Assembly (NCBI GenBank): GCA_003281005.1
Contig: QCDE01000001.1
Coordinates: forward strand, 62,001 to 126,000
Length of the DNA stretch: 64,000 bases
Source: Pelagibacteraceae bacterium AG-349-O05
GTDB lineage: Bacteria > Pseudomonadota > Alphaproteobacteria > Pelagibacterales > Pelagibacteraceae
Direction of reading: 5' to 3'
This document shows, in pieces, positions 9,334 through 63,152 of this stretch. Made by a program: the position numbers and the translations under genes. The notes beneath the pieces are model-generated. The model was not told the DNA's origin and ran no database searches. It saw only the letters and a program-made list of their open reading frames with translations. Positions within the stretch are counted from its first letter, which is position 1. The number at the start of each line of letters is the position of its first letter.

Positions 9334-10386
9334 ATGAGTAAATTAATTAAATCATTTTTTTCATTATTATTCTTAATTAGTTTTACTGCATCTGTTTCAG
9401 CTGCAGATTACAACTTAAGAATGACAATGAACTCTAATGATCAAGATGAAGATTATGATGGTGCTGTAGTATTTAAAAACTACGTAGAAGCAGCTTCAAA
9501 TGGAAAAATAGCTGTAGAACTATTTGTAGGTACGCAGCTTTGTTCAAAAGGTGCTGAGTGTTTACAAGGTGTATCTGATGGAAGTATAGATATTTACATT
9601 TCTACTTCTGGAGGTGCTGCAGGCGTATTCCCATATGTTCAGGTTTTAGATTTACCTTATCTAATGGCTGATGACAGAATTGCTGAAGATGTAATGCAAG
9701 GTGATTTTGTAAGAACAATGAGAAAAATGGCTCTAAAAGATTCTAATGACTCAATTAGATTGATGACAATTGGAAATACTGGAGGATGGAGAAATTTTGC
9801 TAATACAAAAAGAAGAGTTGCAAATCCATCTGACATGAAAGGTTTAAAAATCAGAACAGTTGTAGCTGATTTACCTCAGGAACTTGTAAGAGCATTAGGT
9901 GCATCTCCAACTCCTATTCCATGGCCGGAATTGTTTACATCATTTCAAACTGGTGTAGTTGAAGGATCTAAAAATGGAATAACTGATATTATGAACATGA
10001 AGTTTCCTGATGCAGGTCTAAAATACGTTACTTTAGATGGTCATGCATACATGGGTGCATTGTGGTGGATGAATAATGCAAAATATCAATCGATGTCAAC
10101 AGATCTTAAAAAAGTTGTGACTGATGGTTTCTATGCTTTGCAACAAGCAACTTTTGCTTCTCCTAAGAGAAAATCAATCAAAGCTTACGAGGACTTTGTA
10201 GCAGGTGGTGGAGATTTATATGTTCCTACGCCTGATCAAAAAGCTAGTTTTAAAAAAGAAGCTAGCCCAGTGTATGATTGGTTTAAAGCTAATGTTAAAG
10301 GTGGAAAAGAAATTTTCAACGCTTTAACTAAAGCAGTAGCTAAAGCAGAGAAAAAAGCATCGAGCGCATACAAAAAAGATTTGTAA
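9334..10386 (+). CDS. dctP: TRAP transporter solute-binding protein (DctP-type)
   Basis: A 350-aa periplasmic receptor with a signal peptide cleaved after about residue 23 (VSAAD). GLKIRTV near 168-174 supplies the Arg that in this family binds the ligand carboxylate, and the PWPELFTSFQTGVVEG block closes the site. The ligand is thus most likely an organic or sugar acid; it cannot be named. It is the last gene of the dctQMP group. An 11-bp hairpin (10399-10430) follows, shared with the convergent SEL1 gene. Confidence 0.94.
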   Translation: MSKLIKSFFSLLFLISFTASVSAADYNLRMTMNSNDQDEDYDGAVVFKNYVEAASNGKIAVELFVGTQLCSKGAECLQGVSDGSIDIYISTSGGAAGVFPYVQVLDLPYLMADDRIAEDVMQGDFVRTMRKMALKDSNDSIRLMTIGNTGGWRNFANTKRRVANPSDMKGLKIRTVVADLPQELVRALGASPTPIPWPELFTSFQTGVVEGSKNGITDIMNMKFPDAGLKYVTLDGHAYMGALWWMNNAKYQSMSTDLKKVVTDGFYALQQATFASPKRKSIKAYEDFVAGGGDLYVPTPDQKASFKKEASPVYDWFKANVKGGKEIFNALTKAVAKAEKKASSAYKKDL

Positions 10387-10398
10387 TTTCAAATTAAT

Positions 10399-10430
10399 AT
10401 AATGGGGCGGATTTAAGTTCGCCTCATTAT
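10399..10430. terminator. hairpin between convergent dctP and SEL1-repeat genes
   Basis: Arms 10399-10409 and 10420-10430 pair over 11 bp with one G-U on the plus-strand RNA and a 10-base loop. There is no T-run after it in the plus direction. The right arm covers the stop codon of the minus-strand gene (10427). It probably ends or protects the dctP transcript; termination itself is not shown. Confidence 0.5.
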
Positions 10431-22546: not shown

Positions 22547-23479
22547 ATGAAAAACTTAACAAGAAAAATTGTTGTTTTTTTTACAGCAATTTTTTTATCA
22601 ATCAGTTTAGGTTCAGTCTCTTTTGCTGATGGACATGGTAAAAAAATTCTATTCAGTATTAAAGGTCCTGGATCAGGAAATCCTTTTTGGGCATCTGTAA
22701 CAAAAGGTGCTGAAGAAGAAGCTAAAAAGCTTGGAGTTAAATTAATTTTAATTGCACCTCCTCAAGAAGGAGATGTACAGGCACAGATAAACCAAGTAGA
22801 AGACCAACTTGCAAAAGGTGTTGACGCTTTAGCACTCGCACCAGGAGATCCAAATGCATTTGCTCCAATCGTTGATGATGCTATCAAAAGTGGTGTTCCA
22901 GTTGTATTCGTTGATACAAAAGGAATTAACGAAGGAGTAACTTTCATTGGGACAAACAACATGAATGGTGCAGAGTTAGCTGCGAAATTTATTTGTGATA
23001 AAACTCCTAAAGGTTCAGATGTTGCAATTTTAACTGGTATCGAGTCACAATCTACAGCGTTGTTAAGAAGAGATGGTGCAATAAAAGGTTTTAAAAATTG
23101 TGGATTAAACATTGTTGCAACTCAAACTGCTGAGTGGGATACTGCTAAAGGTAGATCTGTAACAGAGTCAATCATCTTAAAAAATCCAAATATTAAAGCT
23201 ATATTTGCTTCAAATGATAATATGGGCTTAGGTGCTATGCAGGCTCTTAAAGATGCGGACATGAATGATGTGGTTGTGGTAGGATTTGATGCTACGCCAG
23301 ATGCAGCTACAAGTATCTTAAAAGGAGAAATGACAGCAACAATTGCTCAGTTTTCTTATAACATGGGTGCATATGGAGTTAAATATGCTCTTGAATTAGC
23401 TAATGGTGGAAGTATTGATCCAAATATCGATACAGGAACGCAATTAGTAACAAAAGAAAACGCTAACGATTTTAAATAA
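22547..23479 (+). CDS. sugar ABC transporter substrate-binding protein (RbsB-like)
   Basis: A 310-aa periplasmic binding protein with a signal peptide ending SFADG near residue 28. The fold is of the ribose/galactose/inositol type, with IKGPGSGNPFWASV, DALALAPGDPNAFAP and FASNDNMGLGA marking the first, hinge and second lobes. A 119-bp gap and a good ribosome site (GGGGAA) precede it, suggesting extra expression independent of the permease. A strong terminator follows. The ligand cannot be read from sequence. FucU and ribokinase downstream favour a reducing sugar, IolD upstream an inositol. Confidence 0.94.
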   Translation: MKNLTRKIVVFFTAIFLSISLGSVSFADGHGKKILFSIKGPGSGNPFWASVTKGAEEEAKKLGVKLILIAPPQEGDVQAQINQVEDQLAKGVDALALAPGDPNAFAPIVDDAIKSGVPVVFVDTKGINEGVTFIGTNNMNGAELAAKFICDKTPKGSDVAILTGIESQSTALLRRDGAIKGFKNCGLNIVATQTAEWDTAKGRSVTESIILKNPNIKAIFASNDNMGLGAMQALKDADMNDVVVVGFDATPDAATSILKGEMTATIAQFSYNMGAYGVKYALELANGGSIDPNIDTGTQLVTKENANDFK

Positions 23480-23498: not shown

Positions 23499-23534
23499 TA
23501 AAAAGGGTGGAATTTAATTCCACCCTTTTTTTTT
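23499..23534 (+). terminator. intrinsic terminator after the CUT2 binding-protein gene
   Basis: AAAAGGGTGGAATT and its complement form a stem around a short central loop, followed by a run of about nine T. It separates the binding-protein gene from the FucU gene, whose start is 18 bp further on. Read-through would be needed, or a separate promoter, to express the mutarotase and kinase. Confidence 0.92.
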
Positions 23535-23552
23535 ATGTAATATAATATTTTA

Positions 23553-24014
23553 ATGTTAATAAATATTAATCCAGTTTTAAGCCCTGAATTATTATTTCAT
23601 CTAAGATCTATGGGTCATGGAGAAAAATTAATTTTAGCTGATGCGAATTTTCCAGCAAATACTACAAATAATAAAGTAATAAGATTGGACGGAGTTGGTA
23701 TAAAAAAAGCAGCCTCCGCCATACTTTCAGTTTTTCCACTTGATAGTTTTATTAATTCAAAGGGAGGATCTCCAGCTTTAAGAATGGAAGTAGACGATAA
23801 ACCTGAGGAGTTAACTGAAACTCATAAAGAATTTATTGAAGTTGTAAAAAAAATATCAGGAGAAAATTGGAATGTAGGATCAATTTCAAGACAAGAGTTT
23901 TATCAAGAGGCAAAGAAAGCTTATTGTATAGTTACCACAACAGACGCAAGACCGTTTGGTTGTTTTATTCTCACCAAAGGAGTCATTTTACCTGACGGAA
24001 ACGTTTGGACTTAA
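23553..24014 (+). CDS. FucU/RbsD-family sugar mutarotase
   Basis: A 153-aa RbsD/FucU-family protein. These catalyse exchange between anomers or ring forms of ribose or fucose so the right form reaches the kinase. The N-terminal LSPELLFHLRSMGHGEKL carries the conserved His, and ADANFP and a Tyr/Arg-rich C-terminal stretch (TTDARPFGCF) are typical. It is followed after 3 bp by ribokinase, so the pair probably serves ribose or a ribose-like sugar brought in by the CUT2 importer. Confidence 0.88.
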   Translation: MLININPVLSPELLFHLRSMGHGEKLILADANFPANTTNNKVIRLDGVGIKKAASAILSVFPLDSFINSKGGSPALRMEVDDKPEELTETHKEFIEVVKKISGENWNVGSISRQEFYQEAKKAYCIVTTTDARPFGCFILTKGVILPDGNVWT

Positions 24015-24946: not shown

Positions 24947-25708
24947 ATGAAAACTGAATATTTTGATCTTAAAAATAAAAGAGCTTTAGTTTCAGGCGGA
25001 GCTTCGGGTATTGGATCATCAATTGTTGAACATCTTTGTGAGCAAGGAGTTGAAGTATATTTTTTTGATATTAATAAAAATGAGGCAAAAAAAACTATAA
25101 ATAAAATTAAAAAGAAAAAATTTAAAACTCCTTCATTTGTAGAATGTAATATTAAAAATATTAAAAAATATAAATCATCAATTTTAAACATTATTAAAAA
25201 ACAAGGTCCTATTGACATTTTAGTTAATAATGCCTCTAACGACCAAAGACATAGTTTAGAGAAAATAACAGAAAAATATTGGGATGACAGAATGGCCATT
25301 AATTTAAAGCATTATTTGTTTGCTATACAGACGGTTAAAAAAAGCATGGTGAAAAACAAAGGTGGATCAATAATAAATTTAGGTTCTGTTAGTTGGGTTA
25401 GGGGAGCAGTAATGTTTCCAGCTTATAGCACTGCAAAGGCGGGAATTCATGGATTGACTAGATCTTTAGCAAGAGATTTAGGAAAACATAATATAAGAAT
25501 CAACTCAATTGCACCTGGTTCTATTGCCACTGAGAGACAATCAAAGTTATGGCTTACTCCAAAATTCAAAAAAGAAATATTAAAAAATCAGGCTTTAAAA
25601 AAACAACTCATACCTGAGGATGTTTCAAAAATAGTCTTATATTTAGCATCTGATGTTTCTTCAGGTTGTACAAAACAGAATTTTGTTGTAGATGCAGGCT
25701 TAATATAA
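24947..25708 (+). CDS. SDR aldose dehydrogenase-like protein (paralogue of 36970-37731)
   Basis: A 253-aa classical short-chain dehydrogenase. It has the cofactor loop GGASGIG, NNAS, and catalytic Ser (NLGSVSW), Tyr and Lys (YSTAKAG). The C-terminal PGSIATERQ and GCTKQNFVVDAG match sugar 1-dehydrogenases acting on xylose, arabinose or galactose. It is the near twin of the SDR at 36970, with long identical runs such as RMAINLKHY. It ends 4 bp short of the convergent rhamnonate-dehydratase-like gene and may supply the aldonate used there. Confidence 0.86.
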   Translation: MKTEYFDLKNKRALVSGGASGIGSSIVEHLCEQGVEVYFFDINKNEAKKTINKIKKKKFKTPSFVECNIKNIKKYKSSILNIIKKQGPIDILVNNASNDQRHSLEKITEKYWDDRMAINLKHYLFAIQTVKKSMVKNKGGSIINLGSVSWVRGAVMFPAYSTAKAGIHGLTRSLARDLGKHNIRINSIAPGSIATERQSKLWLTPKFKKEILKNQALKKQLIPEDVSKIVLYLASDVSSGCTKQNFVVDAGLI

Positions 25709-25712
25709 AAAT

Positions 25713-26888
25713 TTATTCAATAATATTAAAATCAGATTTATATTTATCTTTAATTGATAAACCTAAACCTGGAATATTATCGTCTAAATTAATATAACCA
25801 TCTTTTGGTGCAGGATCGCCATCAAAGATATAATAAAAAAGTTCATTTCCTATTTCAACATCATGTACTGGAAAAAATTCAGAAATAGGACAATTAAAAT
25901 TAGACATCGTTAAATGATAATTATGCATTTGACCTGCGTGAGGAATAACGGGTACCTGATAAGCTTCGGCTAGTGCATTAATTTTTTGTGCAATAGTAAA
26001 CCCACCAACTCTATTATTGTCATATTGGATATAGCTTACAGCTTTTAAGTCTAACAATTGTTTAAAACCAAATAGATTAAATTCATGCTCACCACCAGAA
26101 ATGGGTATCATGTTCATATTATTTAATTCAGCATATCCGTTGATATCATCTGCAACAACTGGTTCCTCTAGCCATCTTGGATTAAACTTCATAAGTTTAG
26201 GAATTATTCTTTTTGTGTAATCTAAATTCCATCCCATGTAACATTCCATCATGAGATCAGTATTTTCGCCAATTACCTCTCTTACTGCAGCAGCAAGTTC
26301 TATATTTTTTTTTATACCATCAGGCCCATCTTTAGGACCCCAGCCAAACCTCATTTTAAACATTTTGAAACCTTGTTTAACGTAACTTTCAGCCTCTTTT
26401 TGAAGATCTTTTATTGGTTGACTGTAAAGTTTAGACGCATAAACAGGAATTTTTTCTTTAGTTCTCCCACCTAATAATTTGAAAACAGGTTTTTTAGTAA
26501 TTTTTCCCATAATATCCCACAGCGCAATATCGATTGCAGAAATTGCGACCATGCCAACTCCTCTTCGCCCCCATGCATGAGTTCTTCTATACATTTTTTC
26601 CCAAAGATTAGCATAATCAAAAGGATCTTCCCCAATTACCAAAGGTTTCAAATATGTATCAATGATTTTTTTAGTAACTTGTGGCGCTAAAGCTGCATTA
26701 CCAATCCCAATTATTCCGTCATCAGTTTCAATTTCACAAATTAACCATTCATGAAATCTAAAAGATCCCATAGCATCTGATTTTTCAAAAAGAATATCAG
26801 AAGCATTTGTACAAAAATTATTTTGAGGAGGAACAGTTTTACCATTCCACTGATAAACTTTAGTTTTAATATTTTTTATTTTAGTCAT
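25713..26888 (-). CDS. enolase-superfamily sugar-acid dehydratase, L-rhamnonate dehydratase-like
   Basis: A 391-aa enolase-superfamily enzyme. Metal-ligand segments are [15 protein letters not shown] and SGGEHE, and the general acid/base His lies in [10 protein letters not shown]. The [20 protein letters not shown] and HNYHLTM segments are those of L-rhamnonate dehydratase, which turns the aldonate into its 2-keto-3-deoxy form. The start overlaps the pdxA2-like stop as TAATG. An HpcH/HpaI aldolase that could cleave the product is 11 kb away at 14290. Another 6-deoxy or pentonic acid is a possible substrate. Confidence 0.88.
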
Positions 26889-27883
26889 TATTTATTTTTA
26901 TTTTCAGCCATTGTTAATGCAATTTTGAATGAATTCAAAGTAGGTTCTAAATTTGCTTTATTTTGACCAGCTATATCAAAGGCAGTACCATGTGCAGGAG
27001 TGGTTATTGGTATAGGCAAACCTCCTTGAACAGTTACTCCTCTATCAAATCCAAACGCCTTTAGACCTGATTGCAAGGCATCATGATACATTCCAACAAT
27101 ACAATCATGATTTTTATTTTTATAAGCTGTTATAAACGACGTGTCACAAGGTAAAGGACCATCAGCATTTATTCCAAGTTTTTTAGCATCCTCAATTGCT
27201 GGGATAATTTCATCTTTTTCTTCAGTTCCAAATTCAGCATGCGGATTAAGAGCCTGAACTGCAACTCTAGGATTTTTTACTCCATTTAATTTCATAGCTT
27301 CATCAATAAGTTTTATAGGTAGTAGAATTCTATCTCTTTTTATTTGGCTTGGAACATCTTTAATTGGAATATGTGATGTAACTCTTGCTGTCCAAAAGTT
27401 ATCAATAACGTTGAATTCGCAAAAGAAATCTTTCACTTTTAATTTTTCAGCCATCAAATGAAGTTCATCTGAATATTTGTTCCCTCCTAAAACTAAACTT
27501 GTTTTATTAAACGGACCAAAGTTTATTGCGTGAATTTTATTTTCTTTCGCAAGTTCAAGTGCAAGGTTCAATGCAGATAATACACTTTCTCCTGATTCTT
27601 TTGAACATTCTGATAAATTATATTGATAATTTTTGCCTTGAGAAATATCTAAAAAAAACTTATTGTTCTTGTAAAAATTGATTTCTTCGAAACTATCAAC
27701 AAAATTTAATTGAGTTGATTTGCCAGAAATCTTATTTCCGCTTTCTAAAATATTTTTTTCACCAATTACAACTACATTTGCTTTTTTTGTAATATCTTCA
27801 TTTAGTAATTTAGATATTAGTTCTGGGCCGATACCAGAAGGATCACCTAGAAGGACAGCAATAATAATTTTTTTTTGAGACAT
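26888..27883 (-). CDS. pdxA2: PdxA2-type 4-phospho-threonate/erythronate dehydrogenase-like protein
   Basis: A 331-aa PdxA-family NAD-dependent dehydrogenase and decarboxylase. GDPSGIGPE is at the N-terminus, MYHDALQSG and HGTAFDIAG at the C-terminus, and metal-binding His are in place. PdxA itself works in vitamin B6 synthesis, whereas PdxA2 oxidises 4-phospho-D-threonate or -erythronate in sugar-acid breakdown. Placement with a sugar-acid dehydratase and a tricarboxylate-type importer argues for the catabolic role. The DUF1537 kinase that normally makes its phosphorylated substrate was not found in the window. Confidence 0.82.
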
Positions 27884-27952
27884 TTTTTTCTTTACGGTTT
27901 GTATCAGTCTATGTTTATATCTTCATTTATAAATTAACTAAAGAGGGAAATA

Positions 27953-28927
27953 ATGAAAAAAAGCTTTAAACTATTTTTAGCAGCTGCTTTTTTAGTAACT
28001 GAATTTTTTGTTGTAGCTCTTCCATTAATGATCACTTCAGCTAAAGCTGATGGTCATCCGATTCAAGCAATTACTCACGCTGGTTTTGGTGGTGGAACTG
28101 ACGTTACTACTAGAATGATGTTATTAAGAGCAAGAAGAGTTCTTAAGCAGGATATGCAATTAGTAAACAAAAAAGGTGGTGGTGGAGCAGCATCTATGGA
28201 TTATATGATGTCTTTACCAGCTGATGGAAACCATACTTTAACTTGGACAACAGGTCATGCTGTATCTATGGCTTTAGGTAAAACTAAAGTTAAGTTAAGC
28301 GATATGCAACCACTTGCAAGAGGAACTGACGATCCTCAATTATTTGTAGTTAATTGTAAAAACGATATCAAAGATGCTAAAAAATTTATTAGCACACAAA
28401 AATCAAAATCACTAAAATATGGAACTACTCATACTGGTGGTATTGATGATGTTAGTGCAATCGCATTTACAAAAAAAGGTGGATTAAAAGATCCAACTAT
28501 CGTTGCTTACAAAGGTGTTGCACCAATTAAAACTAACCTTATCAAAGGAGATATTGATGTAGGTGTTTTAAACTTGGGTGAAGCATTGACTGAAATTAAT
28601 GAAGGTAAACTTTGTGTTTCTGTTGTATTAGCAAACAATAGAATGGCTAAAATTGGAGACTCTCCAACAGCAAAAGAATTAGGTATACCTGTTTCTTTAT
28701 CTACTGTTAGAGGTTTCGTAACTAAAAAAGGTGCTCCAGCAGATAGAGTAAAACAATTAGAAGCTGGAATGATGAAAGCTATGAGCCACAACTACTATAA
28801 AAATTTCTTAACAGAAATTGGTCTTGATGAGACAAGTGTTGTAGGTGCAGATGAATGGGGTAAGCAAATGGAAGAAATGCTTACTGAGATGACTGCGCAG
28901 CTTAAAGCTTTAGGTTACATTAACTAA
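27953..28927 (+). CDS. tctC: tripartite tricarboxylate transporter binding protein (TctC)
   Basis: A 324-aa periplasmic receptor of the Bug/TctC family. The signal peptide ends SAKADG near residue 34. ITHAGFGGGTDVTTRMM forms the first ligand loop, and GTTHTGGIDDVSA the second. These receptors bind carboxylates such as citrate or sugar acids and feed the TctBA permease. A GAGGGAA ribosome site precedes the start. It diverges from pdxA2 over 69 bp. The stop is followed closely by an intrinsic terminator lying within the first codons of tctB. Confidence 0.9.
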   Translation: MKKSFKLFLAAAFLVTEFFVVALPLMITSAKADGHPIQAITHAGFGGGTDVTTRMMLLRARRVLKQDMQLVNKKGGGGAASMDYMMSLPADGNHTLTWTTGHAVSMALGKTKVKLSDMQPLARGTDDPQLFVVNCKNDIKDAKKFISTQKSKSLKYGTTHTGGIDDVSAIAFTKKGGLKDPTIVAYKGVAPIKTNLIKGDIDVGVLNLGEALTEINEGKLCVSVVLANNRMAKIGDSPTAKELGIPVSLSTVRGFVTKKGAPADRVKQLEAGMMKAMSHNYYKNFLTEIGLDETSVVGADEWGKQMEEMLTEMTAQLKALGYIN

Positions 28928-28950
28928 TCTAGTTAAAAGTACATTTGAAT

Positions 28951-29457
28951 ATGAAAAATGTACAAAAACAAAAAAGGGCAAACAAAAGTTTGCCCTTTTT
29001 TTTTAGAGACGAATTTAGAGTTTCTCTTGCAATTATTTTAGTATCTGTAGCATTATTAATCACAACTTTTACTTTTGATATTGTTCCTCCTATTTTAAAT
29101 AGAGGAATACAGCCAGCAACATTTCCAAAAGCACTCTTGGTTTTAATAATAGTAATGACATTGTTAATCTATTATTTGGCAACTAAAAATCCTTGGAAAG
29201 TTGAAAAAAAATTACCAAGATCATTTTTTCTAACTTTGTCAAGTTTTATTATTTTTGTAGTAGTTTCTAAAACACTTGATTTCTTTTTAGCAATCTCAGC
29301 TTTGTCTATTTTTGTTTCTTATTGTTGGGGAGAAAAAAGATTATTTTATTTATTATTGGTTGGAATTATTTTTCCAATTATTGTCTTTATTTTTTTTGAA
29401 ACAATTTTAGGTTTAAGATTTCCCCCAGGAATAATTACCAACATTTACTACAGCTAG
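28951..29457 (+). CDS. tctB: tripartite tricarboxylate transporter small permease (TctB)
   Basis: A 168-aa small membrane subunit with about four hydrophobic helices. The first helix is preceded by FFFRDEFRVSLA, as is usual for TctB. I take the ATG at 28951; a TTG two codons earlier (28945) is possible. No Met exists further downstream before the first helix. The codons for residues 8-18 therefore coincide with a strong terminator (28971-29004), which should limit how much mRNA reaches tctB and tctA. The stop directly abuts the tctA start codon. Confidence 0.88.
   Translation: MKNVQKQKRANKSLPFFFRDEFRVSLAIILVSVALLITTFTFDIVPPILNRGIQPATFPKALLVLIIVMTLLIYYLATKNPWKVEKKLPRSFFLTLSSFIIFVVVSKTLDFFLAISALSIFVSYCWGEKRLFYLLLVGIIFPIIVFIFFETILGLRFPPGIITNIYYS
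28971..29004 (+). terminator. intrinsic terminator inside the 5' end of tctB
   Basis: Arms 28971-28983 and 28988-29000 pair perfectly over 13 bp (GGGCAAAC core with flanking A/T pairs), with loop AAAA and nine T ending at 29004. By structure this is one of the best terminators in the window. It lies 20 to 55 bases into the tctB reading frame, so transcription past tctC is probably attenuated here. Confidence 0.9.
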
Positions 29458-30939
29458 ATGGATAATTTACTTTTAATGTTAGCACCTCTTTTTAGTTCTA
29501 AACTATTATTAGTTTTATTTTTTGGAACTTTATTTGGTTTAATATTAGGTGTGTTGCCTGGGTTAGGACCAACAACAGGAGGAGCATTGATCTTACCTTT
29601 CACAATGACTCTAGATCCATTATCTGCAATTGTTTTATTAACTTCTATTTATTGTGCAGGAACCTATGGTGGTGCAATAACTGCTGTACTTATTAATACA
29701 CCAGGGACCCCAGCAGCTGCAGCCACTTGTTTAGATGGCTATCCTTTAGCACAAAAAGGCGAAGCTGGAAGAGCTTTAGGTATGGCAACAGTCTCAAGTA
29801 CTGTTGGAGGTATTTTTAGTGTCGTTATATTAGTTTTCTTTGCTCCTATACTAGCGCAACTTGCTTATGAGTTTGGTCAGCCAGAATATTTTGCATTAGC
29901 AATATTTGGTTTAACGATGCTTGCTTCAATAGGTGAAGGTAGTCCAATAAAAAACTTAATCGCAGGTGCATTTGGAATATTGATTTCTACAGTTGGAAAA
30001 GATTTTATGACTTCAATCGACCGTTTTACTTTTGGGATCAATGAGTTAACTGAAGGAATAGGATTTATACCAGTAGTGGTTGGACTTTTCGCGATGAGTG
30101 AAATGTTAACTCAATCGACTTTAATCAATCAAGTGTTTAACAGAATAGCTTTAAAAGCAATTAAGCTTCCTAGCAAAGATGATTATAAGAAAACTTGGAA
30201 AACAATACTACGATCAAGTGGGATTGGATCATTTATTGGAGTTCTTCCTGCAGAAGGTGGAACTGTTGCGTCTTTAATTGGTTATTCTGAAGCAAAGAGA
30301 TTTTCAAAAAATCCAGAAGAATTTGGAAAAGGATCTATTGAAGGCATTGCTGGTGCCGAGGCTGCAAATAACGCAGCAACAGGTGGTGCGATGGTTCCAA
30401 CTTTAGCGCTAGGTATTCCGGGTAGCGCAACAACAGCGGTTATACTTACGGGATTGATTATTCATGGTGTTAGACCTGGACCAGATTTGTTTAGAGAGCA
30501 GCCAGATTTCTTATATGGAATTTTTGGCGCCATGCTAATAGCTAATATCCTTTTTTTTATTTTTGGATTTTTTGGAGCAAAAATATTTGCAAGAATTACT
30601 TTAGTACCTAATAAAATTTTATGGCCAATGATATTTGCAGTTTCAGTATGTGGAACTTATTCTTTAAATCAATCCATAATAGATGTTTGGATAATGTTAT
30701 TTTTTGGAGTGTTAGGTTTCTTTATGAGAAGATACGGCTTTTCAGTAGTACCAGTTATTATTGGATTAATTTTGGGTGAGTTAGTTGAAGGAACTTTAAG
30801 ACAATCTCTAGTTATATTTGATGGTAATTGGCTGATGTTTTTCACAAGACCAATTGCTTTAACATTCTTTATTTTGTCTTTAATTGCTTTGGCTTTTCCT
30901 TTAATAAGATCGAGGAAAATAAAAAAAAATAATGATTAA
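29458..30939 (+). CDS. tctA: tripartite tricarboxylate transporter large permease (TctA)
   Basis: A 493-aa polytopic protein of the TctA family. LGVLPGLGPTTGGA near the N-terminus, NTPGTPAAAATCLDGYPLA and ALGIPGSATTAV are the family blocks. It moves a carboxylate delivered by TctC, driven by an ion gradient. The start codon follows the tctB stop immediately, and the last 8 bases overlap the following SDR gene. That overlap ties uptake to an oxidoreductase and a kinase downstream. Confidence 0.94.
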   Translation: MDNLLLMLAPLFSSKLLLVLFFGTLFGLILGVLPGLGPTTGGALILPFTMTLDPLSAIVLLTSIYCAGTYGGAITAVLINTPGTPAAAATCLDGYPLAQKGEAGRALGMATVSSTVGGIFSVVILVFFAPILAQLAYEFGQPEYFALAIFGLTMLASIGEGSPIKNLIAGAFGILISTVGKDFMTSIDRFTFGINELTEGIGFIPVVVGLFAMSEMLTQSTLINQVFNRIALKAIKLPSKDDYKKTWKTILRSSGIGSFIGVLPAEGGTVASLIGYSEAKRFSKNPEEFGKGSIEGIAGAEAANNAATGGAMVPTLALGIPGSATTAVILTGLIIHGVRPGPDLFREQPDFLYGIFGAMLIANILFFIFGFFGAKIFARITLVPNKILWPMIFAVSVCGTYSLNQSIIDVWIMLFFGVLGFFMRRYGFSVVPVIIGLILGELVEGTLRQSLVIFDGNWLMFFTRPIALTFFILSLIALAFPLIRSRKIKKNND

Positions 30940-31681
30940 GTACGATTTAAATGATCGAGTGGCAGTTGTTACTGGTGGAGCCCAGGGTTTTGGTTTAGCA
31001 ATAACTGAAAGATTTATTGAAGCAGGAGCTAAAGTAATAATTTGGGATATTGATGATAATGCTGCTAAAGAAGCTATTGATAAAGTTAAATCAGAAAACC
31101 TAAGTCATCAGGTAGTAGACGTAACTAATTTTGAAATAGTAAATAAAAATTTAGGAGAAGTAGAGAAAAAATATGGAAAAATAGATATTTTTGTCAATAA
31201 CGCAGGTATTGCAGGTATGAATACTACTGTCGCTGAATATCCATTAGATGAATGGAAAAAAGTAATGAACTTAAATTTAAATTCAGTTTTCTATTGTTGT
31301 AAAGCAGTTGTTCCGTTCATGTTAAAAAATGACTACGGTAGAATAGTAAACATTGCATCTATTGCAGGAAAAGAGGGCAATCCTAATGCGAGTGCATATA
31401 GCACTTCTAAGGCTGGCGTTATCGGTTTAACAAAATCTCTAGGTAAAGAGCTAGCGCAAAAAAATATAGCTGTAAATTGTGTAACTCCAGCAGCAGCTAA
31501 AACAAGAATTTTTGATCAAATGACTGAAGAACATATAAATTATATGTTATCAAAAATTCCAAGAAATAAATTTGCAAAAGTTGAAGAATTAGCTTCATTA
31601 GTAACTTGGTTAGCAAGTGAAGAAAATTCATTTTCGACAGCTGCAGTTTTTGATTTAAGTGGTGGAAGAGCTACATATTAG
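30932..31681 (+). CDS. short-chain dehydrogenase/reductase (FabG-like)
   Basis: A 249-aa classical SDR. The cofactor loop is GGAQGFG, followed by the Asp-containing VIIWDID that favours NAD, NNAG, and the catalytic Ser (NIASIAG) and YSTSKAG. It overlaps tctA by 8 bp and is followed 2 bp later by a ROK-family kinase, so it sits in the carboxylate-uptake operon. A sugar or sugar-acid dehydrogenase role is likelier than fatty-acid FabG in this context. Confidence 0.86.
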   Translation: MIKYDLNDRVAVVTGGAQGFGLAITERFIEAGAKVIIWDIDDNAAKEAIDKVKSENLSHQVVDVTNFEIVNKNLGEVEKKYGKIDIFVNNAGIAGMNTTVAEYPLDEWKKVMNLNLNSVFYCCKAVVPFMLKNDYGRIVNIASIAGKEGNPNASAYSTSKAGVIGLTKSLGKELAQKNIAVNCVTPAAAKTRIFDQMTEEHINYMLSKIPRNKFAKVEELASLVTWLASEENSFSTAAVFDLSGGRATY

Positions 31682-31683
31682 TT

Positions 31684-32586
31684 ATGCAAGTAGGTATTGA
31701 TGTGGGTGCAACAAAAATTGAGAGTGTTGTACTTGAAGAGAATGGGAACGAAAAACATAGATCAAGAATATCGTGTCCAAAGGAGTACACTCAAATTGTA
31801 ACTGCGATAAGAGATATCCATAGAAAATTAGAACAAGAGTTTAAACAAGAACTGCCGATTGGTGTTTGTCATCCTGGAGTTCATTCTCCTCAAACTGGAT
31901 TAGTAAAAAATGCTCCAAATATAACTTGGTTAGAAAAAAAACCATTTCAAAGTGATCTACGTAAAGCTCTTGGAAAAGAAGTGTTTTGTGAAAATGATGC
32001 AAATTGTTTTGCTTTATCTGAAGCAATAGATGGAGCTGGTACACATTATAAAATTGTTTACGGAATTATATTAGGCTCAGGAGTTGGTGGTGGTTTGGTA
32101 ATAGATAAAAAAATTATTACAGGCTCAAATGGAGTAGCAGGGGAATGGGGACATAACCAAATTCCATATTTTGCAGCTAAGAAAGAAAATTTTGACTCAA
32201 GCAATGCTAGAGAAGCAGAAATTGAAAGTTTTTTATCTGGATTAAGTTTAGCAAAAAGATTTAAGAAACTTTATGGAAAAAATTTAAAAACAAATGAAAT
32301 TTTTGAATTAAATAGAAAACATGATTTAGATGCTGAAAGATTTATTGATGATTTTAAAGTAAATTTAGCAATGTCTCTTTCGAGTATTATAAATATTTTA
32401 GATCCTGATGCTTTTATATTTGGAGGAGGAGTTTCAAACGAAATTGATTTTTTGCATGAAATAGATTCATTGGTTAGAAAATTTGTTATTGGAAGAGAGT
32501 ATGAGGGTGTTTTTTTAAAACCCAGATACGGAGACGCTAGTGGAGTTAGAGGCGCTGCTAGATTAGGTAGAAGCGCGACATATTAG
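31684..32586 (+). CDS. ROK-family sugar kinase lacking the zinc-binding cysteines
   Basis: A 300-aa ROK protein. IDVGATKIESVV is the N-terminal phosphate-binding motif, ENDANCFALSEA includes the catalytic Asp, and GIILGSGVGGG and the GEWGHN segment follow. Most ROK sugar kinases then carry a C-x-C-G-x2-G-C zinc site. Here the corresponding stretch (SSNAREAEIESFLSG) contains no Cys. It may phosphorylate fructose, N-acetyl sugars or a keto sugar. It ends the tctCBA-SDR operon, and the 191-bp gap that follows separates it from the CUT1 importer. Confidence 0.87.
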   Translation: MQVGIDVGATKIESVVLEENGNEKHRSRISCPKEYTQIVTAIRDIHRKLEQEFKQELPIGVCHPGVHSPQTGLVKNAPNITWLEKKPFQSDLRKALGKEVFCENDANCFALSEAIDGAGTHYKIVYGIILGSGVGGGLVIDKKIITGSNGVAGEWGHNQIPYFAAKKENFDSSNAREAEIESFLSGLSLAKRFKKLYGKNLKTNEIFELNRKHDLDAERFIDDFKVNLAMSLSSIINILDPDAFIFGGGVSNEIDFLHEIDSLVRKFVIGREYEGVFLKPRYGDASGVRGAARLGRSATY

Positions 32587-34046: not shown

Positions 34047-34080
34047 AAAAGGCCACTTTTTATAAAGTGGCCTTTTTTTT
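34047..34080 (+). terminator. intrinsic terminator after the CUT1 binding-protein gene
   Basis: GGCCACTTT (34051-34059) and AAAGTGGCC (34064-34072) form a 9-bp stem with a four-base loop, flanked by A-run and eight T. It sits 13 bases after the binding-protein stop and about 24 bases before the first permease start. Confidence 0.93.
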
Positions 34081-34103: not shown

Positions 34104-34979
34104 ATGTTCAAGTGGTTAGAAAAAAATTTGCCTAAAATTGTAATGGCTCCAGCTGTAGGTTTAATTGGTTGGTTTGTTTATGGATTTGTACTTTGGACTT
34201 TATACATATCATTTACTAATTCAAAAATACTTCCTAAATATGAATTATGGGGTTTTGGGCAGTATTCAAAATTATGGGCATCGAGAAAATGGCTTATTTC
34301 AGTAGATAACCTTCTGATATTTACTGCATTGTTTTTAATATTCTGTATTGTGATTGGTATACTTCTTGCCATATTCCTAGACCAAAAAATCAGAGCTGAG
34401 GGTTTACTGAGAACGATTTACCTATACCCAATGGCACTTTCATTTATTGTTACTGGAACTGCTTGGAAATGGATATTAAATCCAACATTAGGAATTCAAA
34501 AATTAGTGGTAGATTGGGGTTTTGAAAACTTTACATTTGATTGGCTGGTTAATAGAGAAATGGCAATTTATACAATAGTAATTGCAGGTGTTTGGCAATC
34601 TGCAGGCTTTGTAATGGCACTATTTTTGGCAGGACTAAGATCTGTTGAGGATGAAATTGTTAAAGCAGCAAAAATTGATGGTGCTAGTTTATTTATGGTC
34701 TATTGGAAAATTTTACTTCCAATGATGAGGCCAGTATTTTTCACTAGTTTTGTGATTCTAGTTCATATTTCCATAAAAAGTTATGATTTAATTGTTGCTT
34801 TAACTCAAGGTGGTCCAGGAATATCAACAACTATGCCAGCATTATACATGACACAAACCGCATTCCATAAGAGTCAAGTTGGATTATCTGCTGCGAGTGC
34901 AATGATGATGTTTATGGCTGTAGCAGCAGTTATAATTCCATATTTGTATTCTGAGTTAAGGAGAGAAAATGCAAGATAG
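34104..34979 (+). CDS. CUT1 ABC sugar transporter permease 1
   Basis: A 291-aa inner-membrane permease with about six helices. The EAA loop that contacts the ATPase is visible as EDEIVKAAKIDGAS followed by LPMMRP. It starts just after the terminator that follows the binding-protein gene, and its last 11 bases overlap the second permease gene. By order and length it corresponds to the MalF/GtsB position. Confidence 0.94.
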   Translation: MFKWLEKNLPKIVMAPAVGLIGWFVYGFVLWTLYISFTNSKILPKYELWGFGQYSKLWASRKWLISVDNLLIFTALFLIFCIVIGILLAIFLDQKIRAEGLLRTIYLYPMALSFIVTGTAWKWILNPTLGIQKLVVDWGFENFTFDWLVNREMAIYTIVIAGVWQSAGFVMALFLAGLRSVEDEIVKAAKIDGASLFMVYWKILLPMMRPVFFTSFVILVHISIKSYDLIVALTQGGPGISTTMPALYMTQTAFHKSQVGLSAASAMMMFMAVAAVIIPYLYSELRRENAR

Positions 34980-63029: not shown

Positions 63030-63076
63030 TAGAGGCTCTTCGATCTCCATGTCGTTATCTCATTGAAGAGCCTCTA
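63030..63076 (+). terminator. 12-bp stem-loop after amt
   Basis: TAGAGGCTCTTC (63030-63041) and GAAGAGCCTCTA (63065-63076) are perfect complements with a 23-base loop. Nothing T-rich follows directly. A perfect palindrome ATTGCATGCAAT (63017-63028) precedes it, overlapping the amt stop. Confidence 0.65.
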
Positions 63077-63120
63077 ATAAAAAGAATTAACTATAATCTC
63101 TCTCTCTATTTAGTTAAATA

Positions 63121-63152
63121 AAGGCCCCTTAGAAATAAGGGGTCTTTTTATT
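63121..63152. terminator. bidirectional intrinsic terminator between amt and bcp
   Basis: AAGGCCCCTTA (63121-63131) pairs with TAAGGGGTCTT (63136-63146) around a four-base loop, with one G-U, followed by a T-rich tail in the plus direction. On the minus strand it sits just past the bcp stop (63148). It therefore ends both amt (as a second hairpin) and bcp transcripts. Confidence 0.85.

Follow-up and report, generated by a model that had tools for sequence, protein, structure and literature searches.

A terminator-like hairpin, conserved as RNA, inside the tctB reading frame of a SAR11 transporter operon

SAR11 bacteria rank with the most abundant cells on Earth, and they are thought to live by binding proteins that stand in large excess over their permeases. 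How a single operon in one of these nearly gapless genomes might set the ratio of the two is a question made testable by a hairpin in the first codons of tctB, a permease gene of a tripartite tricarboxylate-type transporter. We analysed this locus in a 64,000-nucleotide stretch of DNA (hereafter the window) from a SAR11-type genome, whose relatives (80 kept of 132) are Pelagibacteraceae or Pelagibacterales records at 77-98% identity. The transporter genes and the RNA elements at issue are as follows:

27953..28927, + strand: tctC, binding protein of the transporter (Pfam PF03401, E 9.1e-19)
28951..29457, + strand: tctB, small permease subunit (Pfam PF07331, residues 25-158, E 7.9e-12)
29458..30939, + strand: tctA, large permease subunit (Pfam PF01970, E 5.2e-160)
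28939..28963, + strand: SL1, stem GTACATTT/AAATGTAC (28939-28946 and 28956-28963) with the tctB ATG (28951-28953) in a 9-nt loop, from folds and relatives
28970..29001, + strand: SL2, hairpin of 14 pairs with loop AAAA in tctB codons 7-17, from sequence, fold, null models and covariation
28996..29004, + strand: T9 tract, of which the leading six T are paired to the A tract in the SL2 5' arm, from sequence

The genes that flank the operon (24947-27883 and 30932-32586) are of PdxA-like, enolase-superfamily, short-chain dehydrogenase and ROK-family type, which suggests a sugar-acid catabolic cluster.

Inspection of SL2 shows that its arms, AAAAAAGGGCAAAC (28970-28983) and GTTTGCCCTTTTTT (28988-29001), enclose the loop AAAA (28984-28987) and pair without mismatch, as eight core pairs (GGGCAAAC/GTTTGCCC) extended by six A-U pairs. 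The stem begins 42 nt, and the core 48 nt, past the tctC stop codon. With its stable G+C-containing stem, a loop of only four bases and the T9 tract, SL2 has the anatomy of an intrinsic terminator, and by lying downstream of tctC, ahead of tctA and of most of tctB, it also has the position of an internal one. The original prediction had described a 13-bp stem with AAAA loop and nine T over codons 8-18; the loop and the T run are as described, while the perfect stem comprises 14 pairs and, together with the T run, spans codons 7-18 as counted from the ATG at 28951. A scan of the window with Rfam 15 returned no match at the gathering threshold, and in 27900-29500 there were 40 matches with E no higher than 10, each below its gathering score; SL2 was accordingly rejected as a member of a known Rfam family.

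A hairpin so close to an annotated start might be an untranslated leader to a tctB that begins later. Examination of the frame argues otherwise: no ATG, GTG or TTG occurs between SL2 and the first membrane helix of tctB, which bears out the earlier claim that the hairpin lies within the coding sequence, and an in-frame TTG at 28990 sits within the SL2 3' arm itself. Because the frame is open and offers no later start codon, we take SL2 to be translated, in a part of the gene that precedes the Pfam domain (residue 25 onwards). In the window's own tctB lineage, here lineage A, length changes within SL2 are moreover of three bases (L026-L029 and L042-L044; L numbers denote loci), whereas single-base differences occur in the spacer between the tctC stop and the ATG, which measures 11-26 nt in 47 of 48 loci. 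The missing start codon and the three-base changes together led us to reject a later tctB start. The spacer of L012 is 30 nt, taken from an alternative start: this locus (= L228) has one extra base 5' of the stem, and its frame can open only at an ATG within the SL1 3' arm. In the distant L047-L049 the core is shifted by one base away from the ATG, which changes the frame in which it is read. The frames of L012 and of L047-L049 remain open, and these departures make the frame argument slightly weaker and the case that the stem is kept, and not the peptide, stronger. In L046, tctB is frameshifted (two overlapping partial matches with stops) and the hairpin is intact; the frameshift reflects either decay or an assembly error.

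Folding of the RNA from 28920 to 29060 gave -35.8 kcal/mol (z -5.5), a value that none of 200 shuffles equalled. Against synonymous recoding, the first 66 nt of tctB reach z -6.8, the extreme among 58 window genes (the next stands at -2.8), and scanning the operon in the same manner placed the first tctB window (z -6.4) below all others of tctB (14 in all), of tctC (28, lowest -4.8) and of tctA (43, lowest -2.2). The stem also draws on codons that are rare here, CCC (4.2% of Pro) and AGG (7.5% of Arg). The lowest tctC value belongs to the 3' end of that gene (28844-28909), itself unusually structured, and a stretch like it folds likewise in relatives.

To follow the element across the family, we examined tctB in the 60 of 297 genomes that carry it (68 rows), covering 66 loci, that is, all rows except one 99-base fragment of G158, with two rows representing one broken gene. 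Duplicate rows (L035-L037, L106, L109, L117-L119, L123, L131) were left out. Lineage A comprises 48 loci with 35 distinct 66-nt starts; the frameshifted L046 was excluded from its statistics, and L012 was folded from its alternative start. All 35 starts are much more stable than their synonymous recodings (z -3.5 to -8.5), 34 of them with 0 of 1000 recodings as stable and L044 with 2 of 1000, and among the close relatives (n = 80, partly overlapping the first set) the core stem is perfect in 79, L222 having a G-U pair. Relatives lacking the stem, which the original prediction had named as the observation that would count against it, were thus not encountered within lineage A.

Over 40 distinct lineage-A rows, 96.4% of SL2 stem cells pair. 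Both sides have changed in 22 cells, spread over 5 of the 14 pairs, compared with at most 6 cells in controls in which the partner was slid, and this cell count was reached by none of 500 shuffles. The number of two-sided pairs was equalled by 8 of 500 shuffles and that of further pair types by 495 of 500; since the further pair types, and less so the two-sided pairs, lie within the shuffles, not every measure supports covariation. These controls ignore relatedness, so that counts from related sequences are non-independent events. The two-sided changes alter the amino acids of both arms (for example, KRANKSLPFFF versus KGTNKSLSLFF), and L222, L244 and L251 hold possible G-U intermediates. Stem pairs thus covary while residues change, the distinction on which the original prediction had proposed to check conservation. 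Chance or peptide-driven pairing is ruled out by the synonymous null and by covariation: SL2 is a selected RNA element, maintained by selection beyond the protein code.

Similar hairpins occur after other binding-protein genes of the window:

34047..34076, + strand: comparable hairpin between an ABC binding-protein gene and an apparent permease gene at 34104 (putative, from sequence)
23500..23530, + strand: comparable hairpin that follows a sugar-binding-protein gene (22547-23479) and precedes a non-permease gene
10399..10430, + strand: comparable hairpin after the TRAP binding-protein gene dctP (9334-10386), at the operon end

A hairpin of -15 kcal/mol or below within 110 nt of the stop codon follows 6 of the 58 window genes, namely dctP, the sugar-binding gene, tctC, the ABC binding-protein gene, amtB and a gene that, from its sequence, we take to be HU-like. 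All four recognised binding-protein genes of the window (Pfam was run on 15 ORFs and the remaining ORFs were judged by their N-termini) are therefore in this set, although of the four hairpins only those after tctC and the ABC binding-protein gene precede apparent permease genes. In the whole genome, a compact hairpin, with compactness judged by eye, begins 0-24 nt after the stop in 9 of 11 matches to four binding-protein families; the 11 include the window's own two as well as L177, which scores below its family cut-off, and the two that have no compact hairpin after the stop are L170 and L173. The likeness of SL2 to the hairpins after other binding-protein genes makes it part of a SAR11 habit, from which it is set apart by a tctB start that lies upstream of the hairpin. 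In three other binding-protein operons of the genome (L169, L171, L174) the following gene has its ATG immediately next to the hairpin or the T tract. Downstream of amtB lie two strong hairpins, at about 63030-63076 and 63120-63147.

Taken together, the reading we prefer, with a probability of roughly 0.55, is that SL2 serves as a partial intrinsic terminator and as the exonuclease-resistant 3' end of the binding-protein mRNA, overlapped by the tctB frame; we infer termination, its efficiency and the resulting stoichiometry. Most transcripts would end at about 28996-29004 to give a stable tctC mRNA, and a minority would continue into tctBA, leaving binding protein in excess. It is the place of SL2 that is unusual: tctB begins upstream and ribosomes read directly across the hairpin, which in this way dictates the N-terminal tail of TctB. 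In Ruminiclostridium cellulolyticum, stem-loops after binding-protein genes terminate a fraction of the transcripts and keep binding protein more abundant than permease (PMC9045158); the shared anatomy and place suggest the same action for SL2, which by this analogy probably helps the cell to produce more binding protein than membrane permease. That two of the four window hairpins are without a following permease gene slightly lowers the odds of the terminator reading and of the non-stop design considered below.

A serious, if clearly less probable, competitor is that the whole operon is transcribed and its RNA afterwards cleaved or decayed from the 3' side, with SL2 blocking the exonuclease so that tctC mRNA outlives tctBA. 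The strong stem in all lineage-A loci agrees with such a barrier, and terminal stem-loops are discussed as protective beside termination by Wu et al. (PMC9045158). Lineage B agrees with it as well. In these 12 loci, whose TctB is 23.5-29.2% identical to that of the window, in-coding hairpins of unrelated sequence stand at about codons 5-20; the first 66 nt fold at -19.5 to -27.4 kcal/mol (z -1.7 to -4.1), the nulls being weaker (0 to 40 of 1000 recodings as stable), and the stem is kept without a long T run, the T runs being only 3-5, which indicates that a terminator is not common to all lineages. In lineage A, however, the T run is 8-9 in 36 of the 40 rows (4-6 in L033, L047, L048 and L049), a feature needless for a pure barrier. 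Termination, protection and translation control are compatible with one another, and in lineage B the short T runs speak for a barrier or brake.

The possibility that the structures act on translation, by lying over and after the start so that tctB is little translated, or translated only by ribosomes arriving from tctC, brings SL1 into consideration. SL1 places the ATG in its loop, and an ATG-enclosing stem of 7-9 pairs is present in 36 of 40 distinct lineage-A rows, tallied row by row because MAFFT misaligned the SL1 5' arm in the lineage-A alignment; the weaker rows are L045 (5 pairs), L047 (6), and L048 and L049 (4 each), with L045 and L047 departing from the usual SL1 sequence. Both arms recur in 80 of 80 close relatives. 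Start-enclosing stems of at least 7 pairs were found in two other genes of the 58 in the window, composed of A-U pairs only, and 8 pairs were attained by 7 of 5000 shuffles; as the controls give similar stems, SL1 is suggestive, not proven, as a functional element. The ATG of the gene at 23553-24014, after the sugar-binding-protein hairpin, lies in a loop closed by an 8-pair stem of A-U pairs only.

A structure over the start also occurs in lineage D, 48 loci that include a second tctB of the window's genome (L127). Here one arm of an 11-pair stem contains the GTG start and codons 10-13 hold the other arm, and all 39 distinct sequences fall at z -3.7 to -7.1 (38 with 0 of 300 recodings as stable, L110 with 2 of 300). 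Across 41 rows, pairing is kept in 95.3% of cells, and changes on both sides affect 18 cells, compared with at most 8 in slid controls; the two-sided changes fall in only 2 pairs, a number reached by 459 of 500 shuffles, and for further pair types 500 of 500 shuffles score as high. Rare Leu codons occur in the 3' arm of this stem. The ATG of L097 and L098 is likewise folded into a long stem (z -6.8 and -4.8). These starts favour control of translation, but the ATG of lineage A is unpaired, and 19 nt separate its first base from the start of SL2, which we take to lie at about the edge of the initiating ribosome's footprint; such control would also leave the T run without a role, and in lineage C (L050-L054, L101, L108, L144) the hairpin lies between the genes and the tctB start is unstructured. 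As a full account we consider it unlikely. No strong element was found at tctB in L137, L145, L147 and L150.

We also considered whether structured tctB starts are a general alphaproteobacterial rule, and found no support for it: 30 loci from outside SAR11, their starts guessed, show no trend (tctB mean z -0.40, 4 below -2; tctA-like starts 0.13, 1 below -2), with L076 (z -3.1), L085 (-3.7) and L086 (-2.9) among the low scorers. In three non-SAR11 loci from A+T-rich alphaproteobacteria (L086, L089 and L092), a long predicted stem includes the tctB ATG (ATGAGCATAAC/GTTATGCTC, a variant in L089), with z only -2.9, -1.3 and -1.8.

The original prediction had cast SL2 as a translation-coupled attenuator, in which ribosomes starting tctB melt the hairpin and polymerase passes, so that permease output tracks translation. 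Its structural part survives, in that a terminator-like, in-coding hairpin lies between tctC and the permease genes and is kept in relatives; melting by translation found no support. The hairpin does stand in frame soon after the start, and with 23 nt between the tctC stop and the ATG, ribosomes ending tctC could restart. SL1 and SL2, however, fold independently and side by side, with no competing antiterminator pairing in the predicted structure, though a protein or the ribosome might supply one. In E. coli, moreover, a ribosome at a stop codon suppresses a terminator within about 27-30 nt and farther terminators are fully active (PMC4824070), which by analogy would put SL2 out of reach of ribosomes stopping at tctC; and translation reduced the efficiency of the terminator tR2 by only about 10% when it stood 30 bp downstream of an AUG (W48; Li et al. 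2015, PMC4824070). If SAR11 behaves like E. coli, SL2 would be a constant partial terminator, not a switch, and we regard the attenuator as improbable. Weakest of all is the notion that SL2 has no RNA function, being a repeat from a Lys- and Phe-rich peptide ahead of the Pfam domain (Lys codons are A-rich and Phe codons T-rich) or a leader before a misplaced start, which the synonymous null, the covariation, the want of an ATG, GTG or TTG after SL2 and the contrast between three-base changes in the hairpin and single-base changes in the spacer leave with almost no credence.

Under our preferred reading, of SL2 as a partial terminator, writing the terminator into the permease gene would mean that every terminated mRNA ends in an open tctB frame without a stop codon. 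The cost of such messages is indicated by the E. coli study, which attributes an approximate halving of upstream gene expression to terminated mRNA without a stop codon (PMC4824070). We tentatively suggest a protected non-stop design, an idea with distinctly lower odds than partial termination itself, in which structure at the start would keep ribosomes off the abundant short mRNA and tctB would be translated mainly on full-length transcripts. The start would be covered by the SL1 loop (ATG, lineage A) or by the hairpin stem itself (GTG, lineage D), so that tctB lineages would reach start shielding with unrelated sequences. The same genome encodes a tmRNA. SL2 poses a sharp puzzle: it would be a conserved natural source of non-stop mRNA, and its stem sets the sequence of a protein tail. 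As an RNA element hidden in a reading frame, it escapes both annotation and searches of intergenic regions. The search of Meyer et al. 2009 (PMC2704228) aimed at long intergenic regions, which places in-coding elements outside its scope; the Candidatus Pelagibacter ubique RNA motifs that it reports come from the same clade as SL2, and one of them is often followed by a U tract (PMC2704228).

Among known systems, leader-peptide attenuators such as trp and pyrBI (PMC4824070) resemble SL2 in having a terminator in or beside a translated frame, but at tct we found neither a leader peptide of its own nor a pause signal nor an antiterminator, and the frame is that of a structural gene. The E. coli tR2 reporter (PMC4824070) likewise places an intrinsic terminator within 100 bp of the beginning of a coding region and gives rise to non-stop mRNA; that reporter was engineered, whereas SL2 is natural, clade-wide and accompanied by a second stem at the start codon. 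Closest are the internal terminators of Ruminiclostridium ABC importers (Wu et al. 2022, PMC9045158), where a stem-loop separates the binding-protein gene from the permease genes within a single operon and combines an A-U stem extension with a U tract and no antiterminator. Those stem-loops are intergenic, belong to ABC operons and had their termination measured (PMC9045158); SL2 lies in frame in the next gene of a SAR11 tct operon, where we infer termination. The intergenic location that marks the class is absent from SL2, at codons 7-18 of tctB, and this in-coding place leads us to file it as a variant of the internal terminators and not as a plain member. In the literature searched, which covered few subscription papers, we found no report of an in-coding element at a binding-protein/permease boundary. 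On our best reading, SL2 belongs to a known kind of device, a partial terminator after a binding-protein gene, which in this operon the permease reading frame runs across.
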